Both the position numbers and the translations under genes were made by a program. Source: Gammaproteobacteria bacterium (GTDB lineage: Bacteria > Pseudomonadota > Gammaproteobacteria > GCA-001735895). From it: DNA of 64,000 bases. Location of the stretch: assembly GCA_030066085.1 (NCBI GenBank), contig JASJCI010000025.1, positions 1 through 64,000 of the forward strand, read 5' to 3'. This document shows positions 23,379 to 39,370 of this stretch, piece after piece. The notes beneath the pieces are model-generated. The model worked only from the letters and a program-made list of their open reading frames with translations, did no database searches and was not told the DNA's origin. Within the stretch, counting starts at the first letter, position 1. Each line of letters starts with the position of its first letter.

Positions 23379-24545
23379 TCAGCCTTTCGCCAGGGCCTTG
23401 CGTGGGTCGTAGAAGGGCTTCGGCACAACCTTCGCCGCGCGGCGGCCGTCAGGCGTATCGACTTCGACCTCGGTAGCGAGCGCCGTATGTTCGATTTGCA
23501 TCATGGCGAGCGCGATATTGGCTTCGAGCCGCGGCGAATAAATCGCGGAGGTCACCCGGCCGACGGTTTCTCCGCGATGGCTGATCGGCCAGTACTCCGT
23601 GTTGGGTCCCGCTAGCGGTTCGCCGTCGAGTTCGAGGCCTGCCTGCAGTCGGCTGACGCCTGCGCGCGCGATACGGGCCAGCGCCGCCTTACCGACGAAG
23701 TCGGCTTCCATCTCGAGATCGACCAGGCGTTCGAGGCCGAGCTCGAAGGGATTGGTGTGGATGTCCATGTCGCTGTGATAGGACAGCATGCCGGCCTCGA
23801 TCCGGCGAATCGAGGAAGTGTGCCCGGGTTGCAGCCCGAACGGTTTGCCGGCGGCCATGATCGTTTCCCAGAGCTCGTCGCCGCGGCTGCCGTCGCGCAG
23901 GTAGATTTCATAGCCCAGCTCGCTCGACCAGCCCGTGCGGGACACTATCAGCGGAATACCGTCGAGTTCGTGTTCCTCCAGCCAGTAGTAGCGGAGCCGG
24001 TCGATTTGCTCGCCGAACAGCGCCTGCATGATCTTGCCCGAGTTCGGCCCCTGCAGCTGCAGCGGCGATACGTCGGGCTCGCGGATCTCGACGTCCATGC
24101 CGCTGTTGACGGCAACGCCCTGCGCCCACAGCAGCACGTCGCTGTCGGCCAGCGAAAGCCAGAAGTGGTTCTCGCCGAGGCGCAGCAGCACCGGATCGTT
24201 GAGGATGCCGCCGGCGGCGTTGGTGATCAGCACGTACTTGCACTGGCCGACCGCGCACTGTGACAGGTTGCGCGGCGTCAGCAGCTGGGTGAAGCGCGTG
24301 GCGTCGGGACCCGTGATTTCGACCTGCCGTTCGACCGCGACGTCGCTGAGCGTCGCCGTGCTGACCAGGTTCCAGAAGTTCTGCACGGGATCGCCGAAAT
24401 CGCGCGGGATGTACATGTGGTTGTAGACCGAAAAACCGGTCGCGCCCCAGCGCACCGTGGCGTCGAAGTAGGGTGATTTTCGAATCTGCGTGCCGAAGCC
24501 GAAGCGGCGGGCGGCCGCGTTCGCGGCCGTATCAGTGTCATTCAT
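23379..24545 (-). CDS. dmdA: Dimethylsulfoniopropionate demethylase-like protein (GcvT family)
   Basis: 388 residues, the size of DmdA. The N-terminal part (RKSPYFDATVRWGATGFSVY, then NHMYIPRDFGDPVQNFWN) and later blocks (VAVERQVEITGPDA, EPDVSPLQLQGPNSG, VSRTGWSSELGYEIYLRDG) are, from memory, close to the DmdA of marine bacteria. DmdA transfers a methyl group from DMSP to tetrahydrofolate. The wider family is the aminomethyltransferase (T-protein) of glycine cleavage, but no gcvH or gcvP is nearby. An upstream paralogue and a DUF1330 gene on the same strand may belong to the same unit. Clade-level confirmation needs a tree. Confidence 0.75.
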   Translation of the reverse strand: MNDTDTAANAAARRFGFGTQIRKSPYFDATVRWGATGFSVYNHMYIPRDFGDPVQNFWNLVSTATLSDVAVERQVEITGPDATRFTQLLTPRNLSQCAVGQCKYVLITNAAGGILNDPVLLRLGENHFWLSLADSDVLLWAQGVAVNSGMDVEIREPDVSPLQLQGPNSGKIMQALFGEQIDRLRYYWLEEHELDGIPLIVSRTGWSSELGYEIYLRDGSRGDELWETIMAAGKPFGLQPGHTSSIRRIEAGMLSYHSDMDIHTNPFELGLERLVDLEMEADFVGKAALARIARAGVSRLQAGLELDGEPLAGPNTEYWPISHRGETVGRVTSAIYSPRLEANIALAMMQIEHTALATEVEVDTPDGRRAAKVVPKPFYDPRKALAKG

Positions 24546-25142: not shown

Positions 25143-26300
25143 TCAGCCGGCGGGTAAATCCTCGCGCAACGAGCGCCGCGGGATTTTCTTGTCGGGATCG
25201 ACGAACGGCAGGGTCGTCAGCGTAATGTCACGCGCGCCCTCCGCGGTTTCGACCCGCAAGCGGCCATTGCCGTCGACATGCTCGATGTCGAGCAGCGCAA
25301 AACCGATATTCTGCTCCAGCCGCGGTGAATAAACCGCCGACGAGATGTGCCCGACCTGTTTACCGTCGGCAACCACGGGCCAGCGGTGTTCGTTGTTCTT
25401 TTCGAACGGGGCGCCGCTCATGAATACGCCGACCACCTTGCGCCGGATACCCTCGGCGCGAATCCTTGCCAGTGCCGTCTTGCCGATGAAGTCGGGCTTG
25501 TCGAATGCGATCAGTCGTTCCATGCCCATTTCGAGCGGGTTCTCGGCGGGCGTCATGTCGGAGCCGAAATCGAGTACGCCGCCCTCGATGCGACGAATGC
25601 GATTCGGCGAGCCGGGCGACAGGCCGAGCGGCTGGCCGGCGGTCATGATGATTTCCCACAGTTCGTCGCCACGTTCGTAACCGAGCAGGTAAACCTCGAA
25701 ACCGACTTCCGAGCTGAACCCGGTGCGCGAGATCACCACGTCGATGCCGTCGACGGAGCCGTACATCCAGTGGTAGTAACGCAGGTCGAGGATAGCGTCG
25801 CCGAAGACCCTGGCGACGATCTCGGGCGAGCGCGGACCCTGGATCTGCAGCGGGTACACGTGCGGCGTGGTCACCTCGACGTCGTGGCCCGAGTAGGCCG
25901 AAACACCCTTGGCCCACAGGTACATGTCGGCGTCGGCAGTCGACAGCCAGAAGCGATCGTCGGCGATACGCAGCATCACCGGGTCGTTGAGGATGCCGCC
26001 GTCCTGGTTGGTCATGACCAGGTAACGGCACTGGCCGACGGCAACCTTGCGCACATCGCGCGGCGTCAGCAGGTTGGTGAACGCCTCGGCGTCGGGTCCG
26101 GCGATCTCCACGCAGCGCTGCACCGCGACGTCCCACAGGCCGGCGCGCTCGATCGTGTTCCAGTACTCGTTGACCGGGCTGTCGTAACCCACCGGCATCC
26201 ACATGCCGTTGTAGGGATGAAACTCGCTGGCGCCGTATTTCAGGCTGGATGCGAAAAAGGGCGACTTGCGGATGCGTGGATTCAGACCGTGCGCTTTCAT
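25143..26300 (-). CDS. GcvT/DmdA-family paralogue
   Basis: 385 residues from the ATG at 26300 (MKAHGLNPRIRKSPFF); the longer upstream frame is basic and lacks family likeness. It aligns end to end by eye with the DmdA-like neighbour: KSPFFASSLKYGASEF, GPDAEAFTNLLTPRD, YPLQIQGPRSPEI, SRTGFSSEVGFEVYL. It differs at the likely substrate-facing N-terminus, where FSVYNHMYIPRDF becomes FHPYNGMWMPVGY, so it probably handles another methylated compound with tetrahydrofolate. Proteins of this kind are usually annotated only as aminomethyltransferase family. It heads the minus-strand set. Confidence 0.8.
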   Translation of the reverse strand: MKAHGLNPRIRKSPFFASSLKYGASEFHPYNGMWMPVGYDSPVNEYWNTIERAGLWDVAVQRCVEIAGPDAEAFTNLLTPRDVRKVAVGQCRYLVMTNQDGGILNDPVMLRIADDRFWLSTADADMYLWAKGVSAYSGHDVEVTTPHVYPLQIQGPRSPEIVARVFGDAILDLRYYHWMYGSVDGIDVVISRTGFSSEVGFEVYLLGYERGDELWEIIMTAGQPLGLSPGSPNRIRRIEGGVLDFGSDMTPAENPLEMGMERLIAFDKPDFIGKTALARIRAEGIRRKVVGVFMSGAPFEKNNEHRWPVVADGKQVGHISSAVYSPRLEQNIGFALLDIEHVDGNGRLRVETAEGARDITLTTLPFVDPDKKIPRRSLREDLPAG

Positions 26301-26694
26301 GGACTCGGGGGCTCGTCGGTGATATCGAAACAGGCGCGTAGTGTACACAAGCCGGTGCGCCGGTAACGAGGGAATTCGACACTTCGAGTCCCGGGCGATA
26401 GTGCCCCTGCCCGGGCTTGTTGCGGATGGCGGCAGGGTCCGCGCCGGCTTGCCGACAAGGGCCGGGGAGCGGCGACGCGGCATCAACCCGATTAGCCGAC
26501 CGTTCGTCGGAAAATTGACGCTTGTCGTGGATCAAGTCCGCAAAAACACCGCCGTATGGTCTATAGACAGCGCTGCGTGCGGCTTTCAGCGGCCGAAGCG
26601 CAGCGGGTCAGGAAAGACATCGCCTGAAAACACACCGGGAACATCTCGCCTTCCAGATTCAACCGGGCTGCCGTACTGGCCCAGGGAGCTAAAA
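26301..26694. other. Intergenic region upstream of lipoprotein gene
   Basis: 394 bases between two divergent genes. There is no convincing gene. A degenerate FNR/CRP-type dyad TTGTC-GTGG-ATCAA is at 26522-26535, with TATGGT (26555) and TATAGA (26562) as possible -10 sequences for the rightward gene; the spacing is not exact for either. The ribosome binding site GGGAG is at 26684-26688. Confidence 0.4.
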
Positions 26695-31999: not shown

Positions 32000-32128
32000 T
32001 CACGGTTGGTTCCCCCTGTGCGCGGCGCTCGCGTCGATGTCATACGTGTCGCGCGGCACCGGTCGTTCGATCAGCTTGCCATTGATCACGGCGAGTCCGG
32101 CATCGGCTGCCGCGCAGGCCTGCATCAT
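32000..32128 (-). pseudogene. Coupled 42-residue ORF, possible remnant of a citrate-lyase-type protein
   Basis: ATG 32128 overlaps the stop of the oxidoreductase gene (ATGA), and the frame encodes 42 residues: QACAAADAGLAVINGKLIER then PVPRDTYDID. The segment GLAVINGKLIE resembles the C-terminal end of HpcH/HpaI-type CoA-ester lyases (typically G-V-x-x-x-D-G-K-M-I/V). The rest of such a protein would overlap the oxidoreductase and is not present, so this is either a remnant or a small coupled gene. Weak evidence. Confidence 0.3.
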
Positions 32129-34449
32129 GCCCCGGGTTGTTTGATGATCAAGGGTGGCTCGAACGCGGTCAGCGGCGGCAGCGCGTCCGCGTAACGCTCG
32201 ATCTCGACCAGGCAGGTATGCGCGATCGGCCCCTGCGCGAGCCGGGAGGTGCCGATGTCCGCTGTCAGCACGTTCGGATTGCCGTGTTTGCACAGGCTGC
32301 CGGGGCGCCCGGGTTCGAGCGGGTCGTACCAGGCGCCGGCGCTCATTTGCACCACGCCGGGCATGACCTGGTCATCGACCACGAGGCCGCCGAGGCAGGC
32401 GCCGCGGCGGTTGAACACGCGCACGATCTCGCCGGCGACGAGTCCGCGGGCAGCGGCATCGGTCGGGTGCATCACGATCGGTTCGCGTCCCCGGATCTTG
32501 GCCGCGCGACTGTGGCTGCCGTGATCGAGCTGGGAATGCAGCCTGGTTTTCGGCTGGTTTGAGACCAGGTGCAGCGGGAAGTCGGCGGTGTCGCCGCCGA
32601 GCCATTCGCTCGGCGCCATCCATGCGGGGTGTCCGGGGCAGTCGTCGTATTCGAAGCTCGCCACGGTAGCCGAAAAAATTTCGATTTTGCCCGACGGGGT
32701 CGGTAACGGGTGGGCATCCGGATGGTCGCGAAACGCCTGCAGCATCACCACCGGTTCCGCTGGCGGGGGCGCTTTGAACCAGCCCGCCCGTCTGAACTCG
32801 CTGTACGCCGGCAGCTGGATCCCGCGCTCGCGGCAGCGTTCGACGGTCGCGGCGTAAATCGATTCGATCCACTGCTGCTCGCTGCGGCCCTCGGTGAATT
32901 CCGCTTCCAGGCCCATCGCGCGCGCAATGCCGGTGAAGATAGCGTAGTCGTTGCGGCTGTTGCCGACCGGTGCGATCGCCTGCTGCATGTCGATGACGTA
33001 GGGGTCGCGCGGCGAGATGCCGAGGTCGTTACGTTCGAGGGTGGTCGTACACGGCAGCACGACATCCGAATGTTTCGCCATCGCGTTCCAGCACCACTCG
33101 TTGACGATGATCGTGTCCGGTTTGCGCCAGGCTGCGAGCATCTTGTTCAGGTCCTGGTGATGATGAAACGGGTTGCCGCCGGCCCAGTAGACCAGGTGGA
33201 TGTCGGGATACTCGTAACTGCGGCCGTTGAACTCGAAGGACCCGCCGGGATGCAGCAGCATATCGCTGATGCGCGCCACCGGGATAAAGGTGGACAGTGC
33301 GTTTTGTCCCTGCGGCAGCGAAGCGCCGGGTATGCGGGTGTCGTGTCCACCGATGCCGTTGGTGGTGGAGTAACCGAACGTGATGCCGCCGCCCGGCAGA
33401 CCGATCTGGCCCAGCATCGCGGCTACTGTAATCGCGGCCCAGAACCCCTGTTCGCCGTGGTGCTGGCGGGTCAGCGACCAGCTCACCGAGATCATGCTGC
33501 GGCAGGCCGCGAGGCGGCGCGCGAGTTCTCGGATGCGCTCCGCCGGCAGTGCGCAGATCGCGGCGGCCCAGTCGGCATCCTTGACGATACCGTCGTCGCT
33601 GCCGTCGAGATAGCCGCGGAAGCGTTCCATGCCGACGGTGTAGCGCTCGAGGAACGCGTCGTCGGCCAGGTCCTCGTCGATCAGCGTCTGCGCGATCGCG
33701 ATCAGCATTGCCGCGTCGCTACCGGGCCGGAGCGGTAACCACTCGGCATTCAGCGAGTCGTCGACATCGCCGCGGATCGGGCTGACGTTGACGAACTCGA
33801 TACCGGCCGCCCGCGCCGCTCGCATTTGTTCGCGCTGCAGGTGGCGCCCCACGCCGCCGGCGTTGACCTGGCCGTTCGACAGCGGCATGCCGCCGAACGC
33901 AACCACCAGCCGGCCGGCGTCGATCACGGACTGCCAGCTGGTGCTTTGCAGCAACAGCTGCCAGTAATCGCCGAGCACGTGCGGCACGATGACCTCGGCG
34001 GCGGCGAAACTGTAGGTACCGATCGAACGGGTGTAGCCACCGATACACTTCAGGAACCGATGCAGCTGGCTTTGTGCATGGTGAAAACGACCGGCGCTGG
34101 ACCAGCCGTAGGAACCGCCGTAGATGGCCTCGTTGCCGTGCGTACTCCTGACCCGGTCGAGTTCGGCGGCAACCAGTCGTTCCGCCTGTTCCCAGCTCAC
34201 CTCGACGAAGGGTTCGACGCCGCGCAGGTGGGTGTTGCTGCCGGGCCCGGATTCGAGCCAGCTCTTGCGGATCATCGGCGCACGGATGCGCGTGGGCCCG
34301 TCGATGACGTCGATGATACCGCTGCCGATCGGCGAGACATCGTCGTCTTCCTCGAAGCCGTGTAATGCCCTGACCACGCCATTGTCGGTCTCGACCCGGT
34401 AGGTGCCCCAGTGGCTGCCGGTCAGCGGCAATCGGTCTTTTGCTGGCAT
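32125..34449 (-). CDS. Molybdopterin oxidoreductase, BisC/TorA-like, cytoplasmic
   Basis: 774 residues of the DMSO-reductase superfamily. N-terminal LTGSHWGTYRVETDNG and the region GSYGWSSAGRFHHAQSQLHRFL match the TMAO/biotin-sulfoxide reductase group, where a Ser of that loop ligates molybdenum. No N-terminal Fe-S cysteines and no twin-arginine signal are present, so it is probably cytoplasmic like BisC. Likely activity is reduction of an S-oxide or N-oxide, using bis-MGD cofactor. It is divergent from the selenoprotein gene, with 149 bp between the starts. Confidence 0.87.
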   Translation of the reverse strand: MPAKDRLPLTGSHWGTYRVETDNGVVRALHGFEEDDDVSPIGSGIIDVIDGPTRIRAPMIRKSWLESGPGSNTHLRGVEPFVEVSWEQAERLVAAELDRVRSTHGNEAIYGGSYGWSSAGRFHHAQSQLHRFLKCIGGYTRSIGTYSFAAAEVIVPHVLGDYWQLLLQSTSWQSVIDAGRLVVAFGGMPLSNGQVNAGGVGRHLQREQMRAARAAGIEFVNVSPIRGDVDDSLNAEWLPLRPGSDAAMLIAIAQTLIDEDLADDAFLERYTVGMERFRGYLDGSDDGIVKDADWAAAICALPAERIRELARRLAACRSMISVSWSLTRQHHGEQGFWAAITVAAMLGQIGLPGGGITFGYSTTNGIGGHDTRIPGASLPQGQNALSTFIPVARISDMLLHPGGSFEFNGRSYEYPDIHLVYWAGGNPFHHHQDLNKMLAAWRKPDTIIVNEWCWNAMAKHSDVVLPCTTTLERNDLGISPRDPYVIDMQQAIAPVGNSRNDYAIFTGIARAMGLEAEFTEGRSEQQWIESIYAATVERCRERGIQLPAYSEFRRAGWFKAPPPAEPVVMLQAFRDHPDAHPLPTPSGKIEIFSATVASFEYDDCPGHPAWMAPSEWLGGDTADFPLHLVSNQPKTRLHSQLDHGSHSRAAKIRGREPIVMHPTDAAARGLVAGEIVRVFNRRGACLGGLVVDDQVMPGVVQMSAGAWYDPLEPGRPGSLCKHGNPNVLTADIGTSRLAQGPIAHTCLVEIERYADALPPLTAFEPPLIIKQPGA

Positions 34450-34598
34450 TGAATCGAATCTCGGCGGGTGGCCCCTGGCGTGGCCAGATTAGCCGCTCGC
34501 GTTTGCGAGTGTCAACGCGTCGCGGCGCGCCGTTTTGCCGGCGCAGGGGACTGTGCTAACGTGGCCGCCGTGCACGCGTACGCGAGGAGGGTTAAATA

Positions 34599-35834
34599 AT
34601 GGTGCGATTGACCGAGATGCCGGCCGTCGGGCGCGGATTCATCTCACAACTCGAGATTCCCGCGGTCGAGCGAACCGCGTGGACCGAGCCGCTGCCGGCC
34701 GCGCGGCGCCGGGTCGCGATCGTGTCGACCGCGGCGCTGTCGCGGCGCGGCGAAAAACCTTTTTCCTGGCTGGCGCGCGATTACCGGGTCATTCCCAAAG
34801 ACGAACGCGACCTGGTAATGACCCACGTAGCGGTCGAGTACGATCGCACGGCGTGGCAGCAGGATCTCAACGCGATCCTGCCGCTCGACCGTCTCGACGA
34901 GATGGCCGCTGCCGGTAAAATCGGTTCGGTGGCCGAAGAGCACTATGCTTTCATGGGTGCCGCCGACCCGGTCGACATGGAAAAATCCGCGCGCGAGGCA
35001 GCGGCGCGGATGCGCCAGGATGGTGTCGACACGGTTTTCCTGGTACCTGTCTGACCTTTTTGCACGCGCGCCGTGTGCGGGCTTGCTCACTACTTCGAAG
35101 CCGAGGGGTTTGCCACGGTGCTGGTCGGCTTCGTGCGCGAACACATCGAGGCTTACCGGCCGCCGCGCGCGCTGTGGCTCGATTTCCCGATGGGGCGTCC
35201 GCTGGGCAAACCGAACGACCCGGCTTACCAGCTCAGGGTCATGCGCGCGGCATTTGCCCTGCTGGAGGTACCATCCGGCCCGGTGCTCGAGGACTTCCCC
35301 GACGTCATCCCGGTGCGCGACGGGCGCATGGGTTACGCGCTGCCGCCGGAACTGGTGCTGGCCAGCGAGGATATCGGCGATGTCGACCAACGCCTCGCCA
35401 TGGTCGAGACCGAGATTGCCGACCTGCGGTCGGCCTATGACGCCGCGGTAGCCGCGCGCGGTCGCACCACGGTTGGTGCCAGCGGGCTCGCGGTGACCGA
35501 GCTGGCAAACTATATCGCGGCATTCGTCCGTGGTGAAAAACCCAGGAGTCCGCGCAAGGGGGTACCGCCGATCCCGCTGCTCAAGCTGGTGGTCGAGGAC
35601 CTGCAGGCCTATTACACCGAGGCGCGCACGCAGCGCGATGGCATCGACGATTTCGAGCTGGTGGGGCAGTGGTTCTGGGAAGAGACGCAAGCCGGGCAAT
35701 TGCTGCTGTGCCTGGAGGCGGTTTCGCTCGAATCCGACGATCGGGTGCTGCGCCAGATCGTCGATATGTCGCTGATAACGCCGCGCTTCTGGTCCGAGGG
35801 TCCGCTGCCCGGCTCCTCGGGTTCGGGCTGGTAG
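34599..35834 (+). CDS. GrdB-family selenoprotein, in-frame TGA read as selenocysteine
   Basis: 411 residues if TGA at 35052-35054 is read as Sec152; otherwise the frame breaks into 151 residues and an unexplained downstream frame. The two halves are in the same frame and form one protein: before the TGA are VAIVSTAALSRRGEKPF, DLVMTHVAVEYDRTAWQQDL, IGSVAEEHYAFMG; after it come UPFCTRAVCGLAHYFEAEG and RPLGKPNDPAYQ. This is the pattern of the glycine/sarcosine/betaine reductase selenoprotein B family, in which relatives have Cys in place of Sec (CxxC for UxxC). ATG 34599 has GAGGAGG upstream. The C-terminal ~180 residues exceed the core family. Substrate is unknown; clostridial glycine reductase partners are absent. 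Confidence 0.82.
35055..35078 (+). promoter_or_regulatory. Candidate bacterial SECIS hairpin
   Basis: Directly after the TGA, GCACGCG (35062-35068) pairs with CGTGTGC (35072-35078), six Watson-Crick pairs and one G-T, closing a CGC loop. The loop holds an exposed G about 15 bases after the stop codon. Bacterial SECIS elements lie in this position, with a G in the apical loop; the distance is slightly short. Confidence 0.5.
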
Positions 35835-35862: not shown

Positions 35863-37395
35863 CTATTCGGGGGGCGAGCGCACGCTGCCGCCGCGGCGGG
35901 CGTCGGCGATGCCGGCGAGGCCGTCCTGCGGCGAACCGAACACGGCCTGTACGCCGCCGAAGTACATCGATGGCGCCGCGAACGGCCGTGGCGTCAAACC
36001 GCGTGTCGCTTCGACCGGCAGACCGGGCTCGAACGCGATGCTTTGCTGGTGTGCGGCGGTTTCGACGTGCAGGCGCGGGTGTTCGACCGCGGCGGCCAGG
36101 TCCATGCCGCGCGCGGCGAAGTTGACCAGCGTCTGCGCAATCGCGGTCGTGATGCGCGATGCGCCGGGCGAACCGATGGCAAGCAGCGCGCCATCGCGGC
36201 GCCGGCGCGCGATCGTCGGCGCCATGTTGGACGCGAGCCGGTCGCCGGGCCGAAGGCTGCTCAATCCTTTCGTGTGCAGGTCGAGTTCACCGAGCGAGTT
36301 GTTGAGCCAGAAACCGGTGCCCTCGACCAGCGCGCCGGAGCCGTAGCCGGCCGAGGCCGTGATCGCGCAGGCGAGGCCGTCGGCGTCGACCGCGGAGACG
36401 TGTGACGTGGACGGTGCCTGCAGCAGCGACGTGTCGGCAACCCCGGCAAGAGCGAGTAAACGCTCGACCTCGCCGGCCACCTCGGCGCCGGCGCCGTCGA
36501 GCCGGGCGTGGCGATAACCGAGCACCGCGTGCTGCGCGGTGATCATGTGCCCGGTCGCCTGCGCGAGATCGTCGCCCGCGCCGAGCCTGTCGAGGATCAG
36601 CAGCATCGCCGCCAGGCAGGCGCCACCGACCGCCGGTGGCGGGTTGGTGGCGACGTCCCAGTCGCCGATATGTGCGCGCACCGGTGCGCGTTCCACGGCT
36701 TCGTATGCGCGCAGGTCGTCGATGCCGAGTAAACCGCCGCGGCCGCGCACGCCGTCGGCGATATGGCGACCCAGTTCGCCGCGGTATAGCGCTTGCGGAT
36801 CGCGCGCGATTTCGCGCAGGGTATCGGCCAGGTGGGGGATATGCACGGTGTCACCCTCACCGAGCGGACTGCCGTCGGCATGGTGCAGGATGCGGTTGCT
36901 GTCGGGATGCCAGCGGTAGATCGCCTCGTGGGTATAGCCGAGGTATTCGGCGGCACCGCCGGTGAGCGGAAAGCCGCGCTCGACGCAGTCGATCGCCGGC
37001 TGCAGCAGCTGTTGCCACGGCAGGTGACCGTAACGCGCGGCCGCGAGACTCAGCCCGGCGAAGGCGCCCGGCGTGGCAATCGTGCCGTAGCCGACCCGCT
37101 GGCGGGTTTCGCCGCCGTAATCGAATACCACCTCGTGGGTGTCGGCCTCGAAGCTTGCCGGGTCCAGCCCGCGACCGGGCATTTCGGCGTAACCGTCGAT
37201 GACGCGCGGCTCGCCGGCCGCTGGCCAGACGGTGACGAATGCGCCGCAGCCCGGTGACATGATGCCGGTGTCGGTACACATCGAGACGATTTCGGCGGCA
37301 ATCGCGGCGTCGACCGCGTTACCGCCGCGCGCGGCAACCACCGCGCCGGCCTCGGCGGCGATGCGGGTTCCTGCGGCGATGGTGACGTCGGACAT
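35863..37395 (-). CDS. Gamma-glutamyltransferase family protein without signal peptide
   Basis: 510 residues. The N-terminal block GTRIAAEAGAVVAARGGNAV and the cleavage/nucleophile site STSHVSAVDADG (Thr, as in TTHYS of E. coli Ggt) are clear, followed by GYGSGALVEGTGFWLNNSLG and GSPGASRITTAIAQTL. Autocleavage at that Thr gives the two subunits. Unlike periplasmic Ggt there is no signal peptide, so it is probably cytoplasmic, as for some acylases and glutathione hydrolases of the family. Ribosome binding site AAGGAG precedes the start. It is divergent from the GCS2-CBS gene. Confidence 0.88.
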   Translation of the reverse strand: MSDVTIAAGTRIAAEAGAVVAARGGNAVDAAIAAEIVSMCTDTGIMSPGCGAFVTVWPAAGEPRVIDGYAEMPGRGLDPASFEADTHEVVFDYGGETRQRVGYGTIATPGAFAGLSLAAARYGHLPWQQLLQPAIDCVERGFPLTGGAAEYLGYTHEAIYRWHPDSNRILHHADGSPLGEGDTVHIPHLADTLREIARDPQALYRGELGRHIADGVRGRGGLLGIDDLRAYEAVERAPVRAHIGDWDVATNPPPAVGGACLAAMLLILDRLGAGDDLAQATGHMITAQHAVLGYRHARLDGAGAEVAGEVERLLALAGVADTSLLQAPSTSHVSAVDADGLACAITASAGYGSGALVEGTGFWLNNSLGELDLHTKGLSSLRPGDRLASNMAPTIARRRRDGALLAIGSPGASRITTAIAQTLVNFAARGMDLAAAVEHPRLHVETAAHQQSIAFEPGLPVEATRGLTPRPFAAPSMYFGGVQAVFGSPQDGLAGIADARRGGSVRSPPE

Positions 37396-37414
37396 ATTCG
37401 GGCTCCTTGCGCCG

Positions 37415-37456
37415 AGTATGTCGGGCTGTGCCCGCGGCAGTGTTGATCTGGCTCAA
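37415..37456 (-). promoter_or_regulatory. Candidate FNR-type promoter of the gamma-glutamyltransferase gene
   Basis: TTGAG-CCAG-ATCAA (minus strand, 37456-37443) matches 9 of 10 FNR-box bases. CATACT at 37420-37415 is a fair -10. With +1 at 37408 the box is centred at -41.5, the exact class II position, and leaves a 13-base leader holding AAGGAG. Confidence 0.45.
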
Positions 37457-37489
37457 TTGCGAAATAAATCAACCGGTTAGGATGTGCCG

Positions 37490-39370
37490 ATGGGTGAACA
37501 CCGGGTCCACGATACTTCCGACGAGCAGCGCACGCGGGTTTTCGTGCGCGCGATGCTCGACGATATCCGCGCGCTCGAGGCGATGATCGCGGACGACCGC
37601 ATCGAGCGCGGAGTCAAGCGTGTCGGCGTCGAGCAGGAAATGTACATCGTCGATAGCGCGGGTTATCCGCTGGGGATTTCCGACCAGTTGCTCGAACGTA
37701 TCGGCGAGGACAACTTCAGCACCGAACTCGCGCGCTTCAACCTCGAAGCCAACCTCGACCCGATTGCGCTCGGCGCCGATTTCCTGGGGGTCCTGGAGCA
37801 AGACCTGAAATCTGCGCTGCAACAGGCCGACGCCGCGGCTGCCGGGCTCGACGCGCGCGTCGTGCTGACCGGCATCCTGCCGACGCTGCAGGAGAAGCAT
37901 GTCCAGCACGAGAGCCTGACACCCGAGACTCGCTACCATTGCCTCAACGACACCTGCATGGCCGCGCGTGGCGACAGTTTCACCCTCGTGATCGATGGCG
38001 TCGATCCGCTCGAGGCGAGCTTCGACAGCATCGTCGTCGAGGGTGCCAGCACCAGTTTCCAGTTCCACCTGCAGGTCGATCCCGACGAAGCCGTGCCGCT
38101 ATACAACCTCGCGCAGCTGATCACCGCGCCGCTGCTCGCGCTGTCGGCCAACTCGCCGGTATTGCTCAACCGCCGCGTGTGGCACGAGACCCGCGTGGCG
38201 CTGTTCGAGCGCTCGATCGAGTACCGCTCGGCCGCGCAGCTCGCGCGCGGCGTGCCGACCCGGGTCGGCTTCGGCGAAGCCTGGGTGCGCGATTCGATCG
38301 TCGAAGTGTTCCGCGAAAACGCGATGCGTCACCACGTCATCATGGTGCGCGACCCGATCGACGATCCGTTTGCCGCCCTGGGCGCGGGCCAGGCACCGGA
38401 GCTCGGCGCGCTGACCCTGCACAACGGCACCGTGTGGCGCTGGAACCGGCCCTGCTACGGCGTTACCGATGGTAAACCGCATTTGCGCATCGAGAACCGC
38501 GCACTGCCGGCCGGGCCGACGATCGTCGACCAGGTTGCCAGTGCGGCGCTGTTTTACGGGTTGATGACGGCGCTGGCGGACGATGCCGCGAGCATCCCGC
38601 GGCAACTCGACTTCGAGGATGCGCGCGCGAACCTGTTCGCCGCTGCGCAGCAGGGGCTCGCGGCGCGTTTTACCTGGCTCGACGGTGAACGGATCGGCGC
38701 GCGCAAGCTGTTGCGCAGGCGACTGCTGCCGGCCGCGCGCGCGGGGCTTGCGGCACTGGACGTGCCCGCGGCCCAGATCGAGCGCTATCTCGGTATCGTC
38801 GAGGCGCGCGCGGAAAGCGGCCGCACCGGCGCGCGCTGGCTGCTCGACAGCCTGGCCAACGTTCCGCCACAGGAACGCGAGGCCGTGTGCCTCGAGGCGG
38901 TCGAAATCGTGCACGCGCGCCAGGGCGGCGATCGGCCCGTGCACGAATGGGACCTGATCGGGCCAGCGCCGGCAGCCGGCCAGCCGCAGGACAACCTGCG
39001 CGTGGCCGACGTGATGACCAGCAACCTGTTCACCGCGCGCCCGGACGACCTCGTCGACCTCGCCACCAGCATGATGGAGTGGCGCCACGTACGCCACGTG
39101 CCGGTGGAAAGCATCGCCGGCGAACTGGTGGGATTGCTGTCGACCCGCGAGTTGCTGCACCTGCGCGACAGCGATGATGCCGCCACCCCGGTGGCCGATA
39201 TCATGCAGACCGATCCGCCGACGATCGCAGCCGACGCGCCGCTCGCCGAGGCGTTTGCGCAGATGCTCGAAAACGAGGCGGGCTGCCTGCTGGTGGTGGC
39301 CCAGCGGCAGCTGGTCGGTATCGTTACCGAGCGCGACCTGCTCGAAGCGGCGGTGGAGCTGATCCCCTGA
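37490..39370 (+). CDS. Glutamate-cysteine ligase-like (GCS2) enzyme fused to a CBS pair
   Basis: 626 residues from ATG 37490; GTG 37484 is possible. Residues ~1-470 belong to the GCS2/carboxylate-amine ligase fold: VKRVGVEQEMYIVDSAGYPL, FNLEANLDPI, HLQVDPDEAVPLYN, LSANSPVLLNRRVWHETR. Residues ~505-626 form two CBS motifs (VADVMTSNLFTARPDDLVDL and VADIMQTDPPTIAADAPLAE). CBS pairs bind adenine nucleotides and would regulate the ligase. The likely product is a gamma-glutamyl peptide, but substrate is not proven. It is divergent from gamma-glutamyltransferase, so the two may make and recycle related compounds. Confidence 0.82.
   Translation: MGEHRVHDTSDEQRTRVFVRAMLDDIRALEAMIADDRIERGVKRVGVEQEMYIVDSAGYPLGISDQLLERIGEDNFSTELARFNLEANLDPIALGADFLGVLEQDLKSALQQADAAAAGLDARVVLTGILPTLQEKHVQHESLTPETRYHCLNDTCMAARGDSFTLVIDGVDPLEASFDSIVVEGASTSFQFHLQVDPDEAVPLYNLAQLITAPLLALSANSPVLLNRRVWHETRVALFERSIEYRSAAQLARGVPTRVGFGEAWVRDSIVEVFRENAMRHHVIMVRDPIDDPFAALGAGQAPELGALTLHNGTVWRWNRPCYGVTDGKPHLRIENRALPAGPTIVDQVASAALFYGLMTALADDAASIPRQLDFEDARANLFAAAQQGLAARFTWLDGERIGARKLLRRRLLPAARAGLAALDVPAAQIERYLGIVEARAESGRTGARWLLDSLANVPPQEREAVCLEAVEIVHARQGGDRPVHEWDLIGPAPAAGQPQDNLRVADVMTSNLFTARPDDLVDLATSMMEWRHVRHVPVESIAGELVGLLSTRELLHLRDSDDAATPVADIMQTDPPTIAADAPLAEAFAQMLENEAGCLLVVAQRQLVGIVTERDLLEAAVELIP

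Follow-up and report, generated by a model that had tools for sequence, protein, structure and literature searches.

A PrdB-like gene with an in-frame TGA, very probably encoding a selenoprotein, in a gammaproteobacterial genome

The locus

The window, the whole stretch of 64,000 nucleotides that was analysed, contains the following features of the gene under study.

34599..35834, + strand: A-type PrdB-like gene, 411 aa, predicted selenoprotein with Sec at residue 152 (TAG stop included)
34585..34591, + strand: putative Shine-Dalgarno sequence AGGAGGG, by its sequence a plausible ribosome-binding site
35052..35054, + strand: in-frame TGA, predicted Sec codon (U152), also TGA in the paralog
35061..35063, + strand: TGC codon of Cys155, the U-x-x-C partner, invariant in the alignment
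35066..35082, + strand: predicted SECIS hairpin of 5 bp with one internal mismatch, loop CGUNN at 35072-35076 (codon constraint, consensus fold, covariance model)
34656..35309, + strand: predicted Rossmann-like alpha/beta domain, about residues 20-237 (AlphaFold2 model)
35382..35765, + strand: predicted helical C-terminal domain, about residues 262-389, beyond the PrdB match (profile match limits, AlphaFold2 model)

Translation from the ATG at 34599 to the TAG ending at 35834 gives one frame of 411 residues with exactly one TGA, at codon 152. The surrounding residues are V-P-V-U-P-F-C-T-R-A-V, with the motif U-P-F-C. Open-reading-frame calling with table 11 splits this region into two frames; both the translation and the calls agree with the sequence-only reading, in which a single gene had been described as divided at this TGA by ordinary gene calling.

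Conservation among relatives

One genome per species was scanned (84,980 species), yielding 188 relatives. Of the two search patterns used, one lay upstream of Sec and the second was designed with a Cys codon, so that the scan did not favour TGA. TGA was present at the aligned codon in all of the best 80 of the 188 relatives (named genomes), the carriers of which include Alpha- and Gammaproteobacteria, Desulfobacterales and Chloroflexi. This degree of conservation far exceeds what chance would give. The closest 41 relatives (A-type) keep the TGA and have 411-412 residues unless cut by a contig end. The scan found no relative on viral contigs. Shorter homologs (about 300 aa, lacking the C-terminal domain) are present in three genomes of the genus and have CPVC at the site. 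The position is thus occupied by UGA in the best 80 relatives and by Cys in the three shorter homologs, and the earlier suggestion that a UxxC pair stands where Cys-type relatives have CxxC holds.

The TGA form and selA were compared over 57 relatives. The TGA form was found in 11 of these, and selA in ten of the 11 and in no other (Fisher p ~2.5e-10, calculated by hand with relatedness ignored); in the eleventh genome (G023) only a fragment of the gene is present, where the contig ends. Within the genus, most genomes lack both the TGA form and selA. The genus yielded 15 A- and B-type copies, all with the TGA.

In the tree, an A-type group in which alpha- and gammaproteobacterial sequences are mixed is 66-79% identical to the query, and a deeper group comprises the B-type copies and the sequences from Desulfobacterales and Chloroflexi. 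Two SelA types that are about 50% identical occur within the one genus (L012 (G000:C36), L038, L040, L042 and relatives), suggesting repeated acquisition of the sel operon. Together, the mixed tree and the two SelA types suggest transfer of the selenoprotein trait between lineages.

Selenocysteine machinery

The genome to which the window belongs is a 4.39-Mb draft in 85 contigs, 96.6% complete. Searches of the genome located selA (574 bits), selB (388 bits) and the tRNA-Sec gene selC (73 bits) consecutively in one operon on contig C36; selD forms part of a 745-aa frame on contig C14, with Cys at the SelD active-site motif. The genome thus has selA, selB, selC and selD, all of them outside the window, in which the sequence-only reading had noted no sel gene. 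A second paralog (B-type, 42% identical) lies on contig C73 and has its TGA at the corresponding codon. Besides these, one formate dehydrogenase alpha subunit was examined; it has Cys, so the A-type gene and the C73 paralog may be the main selenoproteins of this genome.

SECIS element

Synonymous codon identity was analysed in 36 A-type genes. Its excess over expectation averages 0.09 per codon and reaches 0.74-0.75 at codons 156-159 and 161; the top 13-codon windows of the gene begin at codons 145-159. Nowhere else in the gene is codon choice as constrained as directly behind the TGA. In an alignment of 85 distinct sequences covering all groups, ACGCGCGCCGT and a later GCG hardly change even at third positions; variable third positions occur at codons 155, 159 and 162 (alignment positions 12, 24 and 33).

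RNAalifold gave a consensus hairpin with pairs 15-31, 16-30, 18-28, 19-27 and 20-26 and the loop CGUNN; this structure leaves the variable third positions unpaired. Substitutions at positions 18 and 20 retain G-U pairs, and one double change retains pair 15-31. This is the sole compensatory change, as the stem hardly varies. An earlier hairpin, drawn by hand (pairs 11-31 to 16-26), was compatible with 99.4% of cells, yet showed no double change; the variable and fixed third positions are better accounted for by the RNAalifold structure. Single-sequence minimum-energy folds downstream of the TGA were no better than those of shuffled sequences, so the case for a SECIS element rests on codon constraint and consensus structure.

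Bacterial SECIS rules as given in PMC13188914 call for a small loop, a G in the first two loop positions, a distance of 16-37 nt from the UGA and an energy limit of -7.5 kcal/mol. The predicted hairpin agrees with these in loop size, in the G at loop position 2 followed by U, and in its 17-nt spacing; the consensus structure has an energy of -6.95. A covariance model (R1) of the region following the TGA gave significant E values genome-wide only at the A-type gene and its paralog. These matches rest mainly on sequence, since the model was built with the hand-drawn structure. A third match (C3:26215, E 0.47), in a formate dehydrogenase operon, was taken as chance because the alpha subunit there reads without TGA, with Cys.

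Family assignment and predicted structure

The NCBIfam profile TIGR04483 (PrdB) matches residues 12-222 across the TGA (E=2.3e-26, 92.7 bits), which places both halves in one family, as had been supposed. This score lies below the 300-bit equivalog cut-off. Weaker NCBIfam matches were obtained to GrdH, GrdF and GrdB. The Pfam profile GRDB (PF07355) matches residues 79-149 with 36 bits, above the gathering cut-off. Significant profile matches around the UxxC site thus place the protein in the PrdB/GrdB superfamily, and by its profile scores it is closer to the D-proline reductase subunit PrdB than to GrdB. The GrdB-family label given in the sequence-only reading is to be corrected, PrdB being the nearest curated family. 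That reading had also named the mid-protein Sec (152 of 411) as a difference from GrdB; residue 152 lies well inside the 238-position PrdB profile, so the position is not unusual for PrdB. The added C-terminal part that it described is, in the AlphaFold2 model, a helical domain beyond the PrdB match.

The protein and PrdB share homology over residues 12-222, a Sec site within the matched region and UxxC; they differ in the score, far below the equivalog cut-off, in the additional helical C-terminal domain here, about 180 residues long, and in the lack of any PrdA-type protein in this genome. The likeness to GrdB, GrdF and GrdH (selenoprotein B of glycine, sarcosine and betaine reductase; PF07355) consists of weaker homology around the Sec and UxxC; unlike them, the present system has no GrdA and no GrdE-type subunit, and the region ahead of the Sec is shorter.

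The Pfam GRDB match (window 34827-35045) stops at profile position 345 of 347, just before the Sec, perhaps because the seed sequences were cut there. With a profile that ends at the Sec, annotation may miss the second half of such proteins.

The AlphaFold2 model is a confident single fold (mean pLDDT 87, pTM 0.89) in which U152 lies between strand 145-149 and helix 153-168. A sequence search of solved structures gave no match, and Foldseek returned nothing at E<=0.001. The best VIA-align hit (Z 8.0, rmsd 3.1, 138 aligned, residues 33-237) is an SDR Rossmann protein and is not informative on function. A match to a thioredoxin-family profile is marginal (E=0.051).

Partner subunits

No match to PF09338, the PrdA/GrdE-type pyruvoyl subunit, was found in the own genome or in 24 of 27 relatives; the other three (G464, G466 and G467) gave strong matches and served as a positive control. 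The GrdA profile, for which there was no positive control, likewise gave no match anywhere in the genome, in line with the earlier remark that no GrdA lies near the gene. The genome thus yielded neither the PrdA expected for D-proline reductase nor the GrdA and GrdE-type subunits expected for glycine, betaine or sarcosine reductase.

Neighbouring genes

Two further features of the window were compared with the surroundings of the A-type gene in named genomes.

32125..34449, - strand: BisC/TorA-like S/N-oxide molybdoenzyme (TMAO-reductase-like), divergent, 149 bp from the gene; homolog near 7/41 A-type loci
25143..26486, - strand: DmdA/GcvT-like THF-dependent demethylase; DmdA-like genes near 8/41 A-type loci

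A second DmdA-like copy is present at 23379-24545, both copies lying 8-11 kb upstream of the selenoprotein gene. These side-by-side genes of the DMSP demethylase family both score below the DmdA equivalog cut-off and are possibly demethylases for another substrate.

Among the 41 A-type loci, 34 have selB nearby, 29 selA and 18 selD. Three relatives within the genus have the A- and B-type paralogs on either side of selA-selB-tRNA-Sec; in most others the B-type copy is near selA or selB. In the relative L036 (G017:C267), transposase-like frames were seen by eye at both ends of the A-sel-B cluster.

Other recurrent neighbours are a LysR regulator (12/41), GcvH (10/41), a choline-dehydrogenase-like GMC oxidoreductase (5/41) and the binding protein and permease of a betaine/proline-type ABC transporter (3-4 of 41). 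GcvH is 72 bp downstream of the gene at several loci, and its lipoyl-lysine motif is intact in L063. In a SAR116 genome (L058:9233-9800), the GcvH-like frame directly 3' of the A-type gene looks decayed, with several stops. The loci with BisC, DmdA-like genes or GcvH are a minority and partly belong to close relatives; none of the three was found near the 39 deeper-branching loci. Neither TauD (28071) nor gamma-glutamyltranspeptidase (35863) recurs as a neighbour in related loci. In the window, 35863-39370 after the selenoprotein gene encodes the latter and a GCS2-plus-CBS-domain protein, which are of a glutathione-metabolism type.

Interpretation

The TMAO-reductase-like and DmdA-like genes, betaine transport and GcvH hint that the protein may act in the metabolism of methylated amines or sulfonium compounds. 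As the substrate, a sulfonium, quaternary amine or S/N-oxide compound would fit these neighbours, a possibility that we hold to be doubtful. Our fullest proposal, which is rather unlikely to be right in every part, is that the protein belongs to a pyruvoyl-independent branch of PrdB/GrdB that has its own C-terminal domain and is almost always a Sec form. In marine bacteria it would cleave or reduce methylated onium or S/N-oxide compounds, would possibly be recycled by a lipoylated GcvH-like protein, and would spread with selA-selB-selC-selD as their main client.

The protein might instead be a general thiol-disulfide or peroxide-type reductase, still containing Sec, and not a catabolic enzyme that cleaves C-N or C-S bonds. 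UxxC occurs in many redox selenoproteins (PMC1088965, Table 3), and the most constant neighbours are sel genes and not a pathway; but the thioredoxin-family match is only marginal and the catabolic neighbours recur in alpha- and gammaproteobacterial loci. Judged on the profile matches and gene neighbourhoods, this reading is possible, though we would not expect it to prevail.

A Stickland-type reaction, with the protein as a genuine D-proline reductase or the B subunit of a glycine/betaine reductase, is very unlikely. PrdB, GrdH and GrdF are the best curated matches, the Sec site falls inside the PrdB match and such genes are named proline reductase in published surveys; against this stand 93 bits at a 300-bit equivalog cut-off, the absence from the genome of GrdA and of PF09338, whose control works, the extra C-terminal domain and the many carriers that are marine proteobacteria and not Stickland fermenters. 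On the absence of partners and the added helical domain, we conclude that the protein is very probably not a D-proline or glycine reductase.

That the TGA is a genuine stop, giving two proteins (151 aa and a 253-aa frame from GTG 35073) or marking a decayed gene, would suit the calling of each half as its own frame under table 11 but is hardly credible, given the same-codon TGA in relatives across phyla at nearly constant protein length, the lack of a Shine-Dalgarno-like sequence ahead of GTG 35073, the sheet of a confident single model that the split would divide, and a gene presence that tracks selA. Frame, conservation, machinery and codon constraint, all in silico, make it very probable that 34599-35834 encodes a single selenoprotein with UGA decoded as Sec at residue 152.

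In this selenoprotein, SelB and tRNA-Sec, guided by the hairpin that starts 11 nt past the UGA, would insert Sec at residue 152, and Sec152 and Cys155 would form a selenol-thiol pair where a helix begins. On the model of PrdB/GrdB (PMC13188914), the U152 selenolate would probably attack the substrate. Cys155, as the resolving thiol, would then release the product through a selenosulfide that a dithiol would reduce, again as in PrdB/GrdB. With the pyruvoyl-type subunit absent here and in the 24 relatives, substrate activation must differ from that of PrdB/GrdB; as the protein lacks such a partner, the substrate probably needs no Schiff-base activation.

Relation to known selenoproteins

PrdB-type UxxC selenoproteins have been known since 2005, when 42 were described from the Sargasso Sea (PMC1088965), and are abundant in marine metagenomes; the GOS survey gives 235 Sec and 110 Cys forms (PMC2398784). 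Proline reductase is listed among the more widespread bacterial selenoprotein families, in 110 organisms (PMC5029168). The Sargasso Sea and GOS 'proline reductase PrdB' selenoproteins resemble the present protein as described in these surveys, being marine, UxxC-containing, related to pfam07355 and mostly Sec forms, and are probably this very group. The gene is therefore a well-supported addition to a known kind and not a new selenoprotein family. In the open-licence literature, as far as its accessible text goes, we found no description of the C-terminally extended, PrdA-less architecture or of the linkage to sel genes.

Since ordinary gene calling halves the protein and Pfam GRDB stops at the Sec, a widespread marine family can readily escape notice or be given the wrong name of proline reductase. 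The sel-gene linkage suggests that many marine bacteria may retain selenocysteine in good part because of this family. One carrier is the named strain Roseovarius aestuarii KCTC 22174 (L094), which makes the function directly testable.
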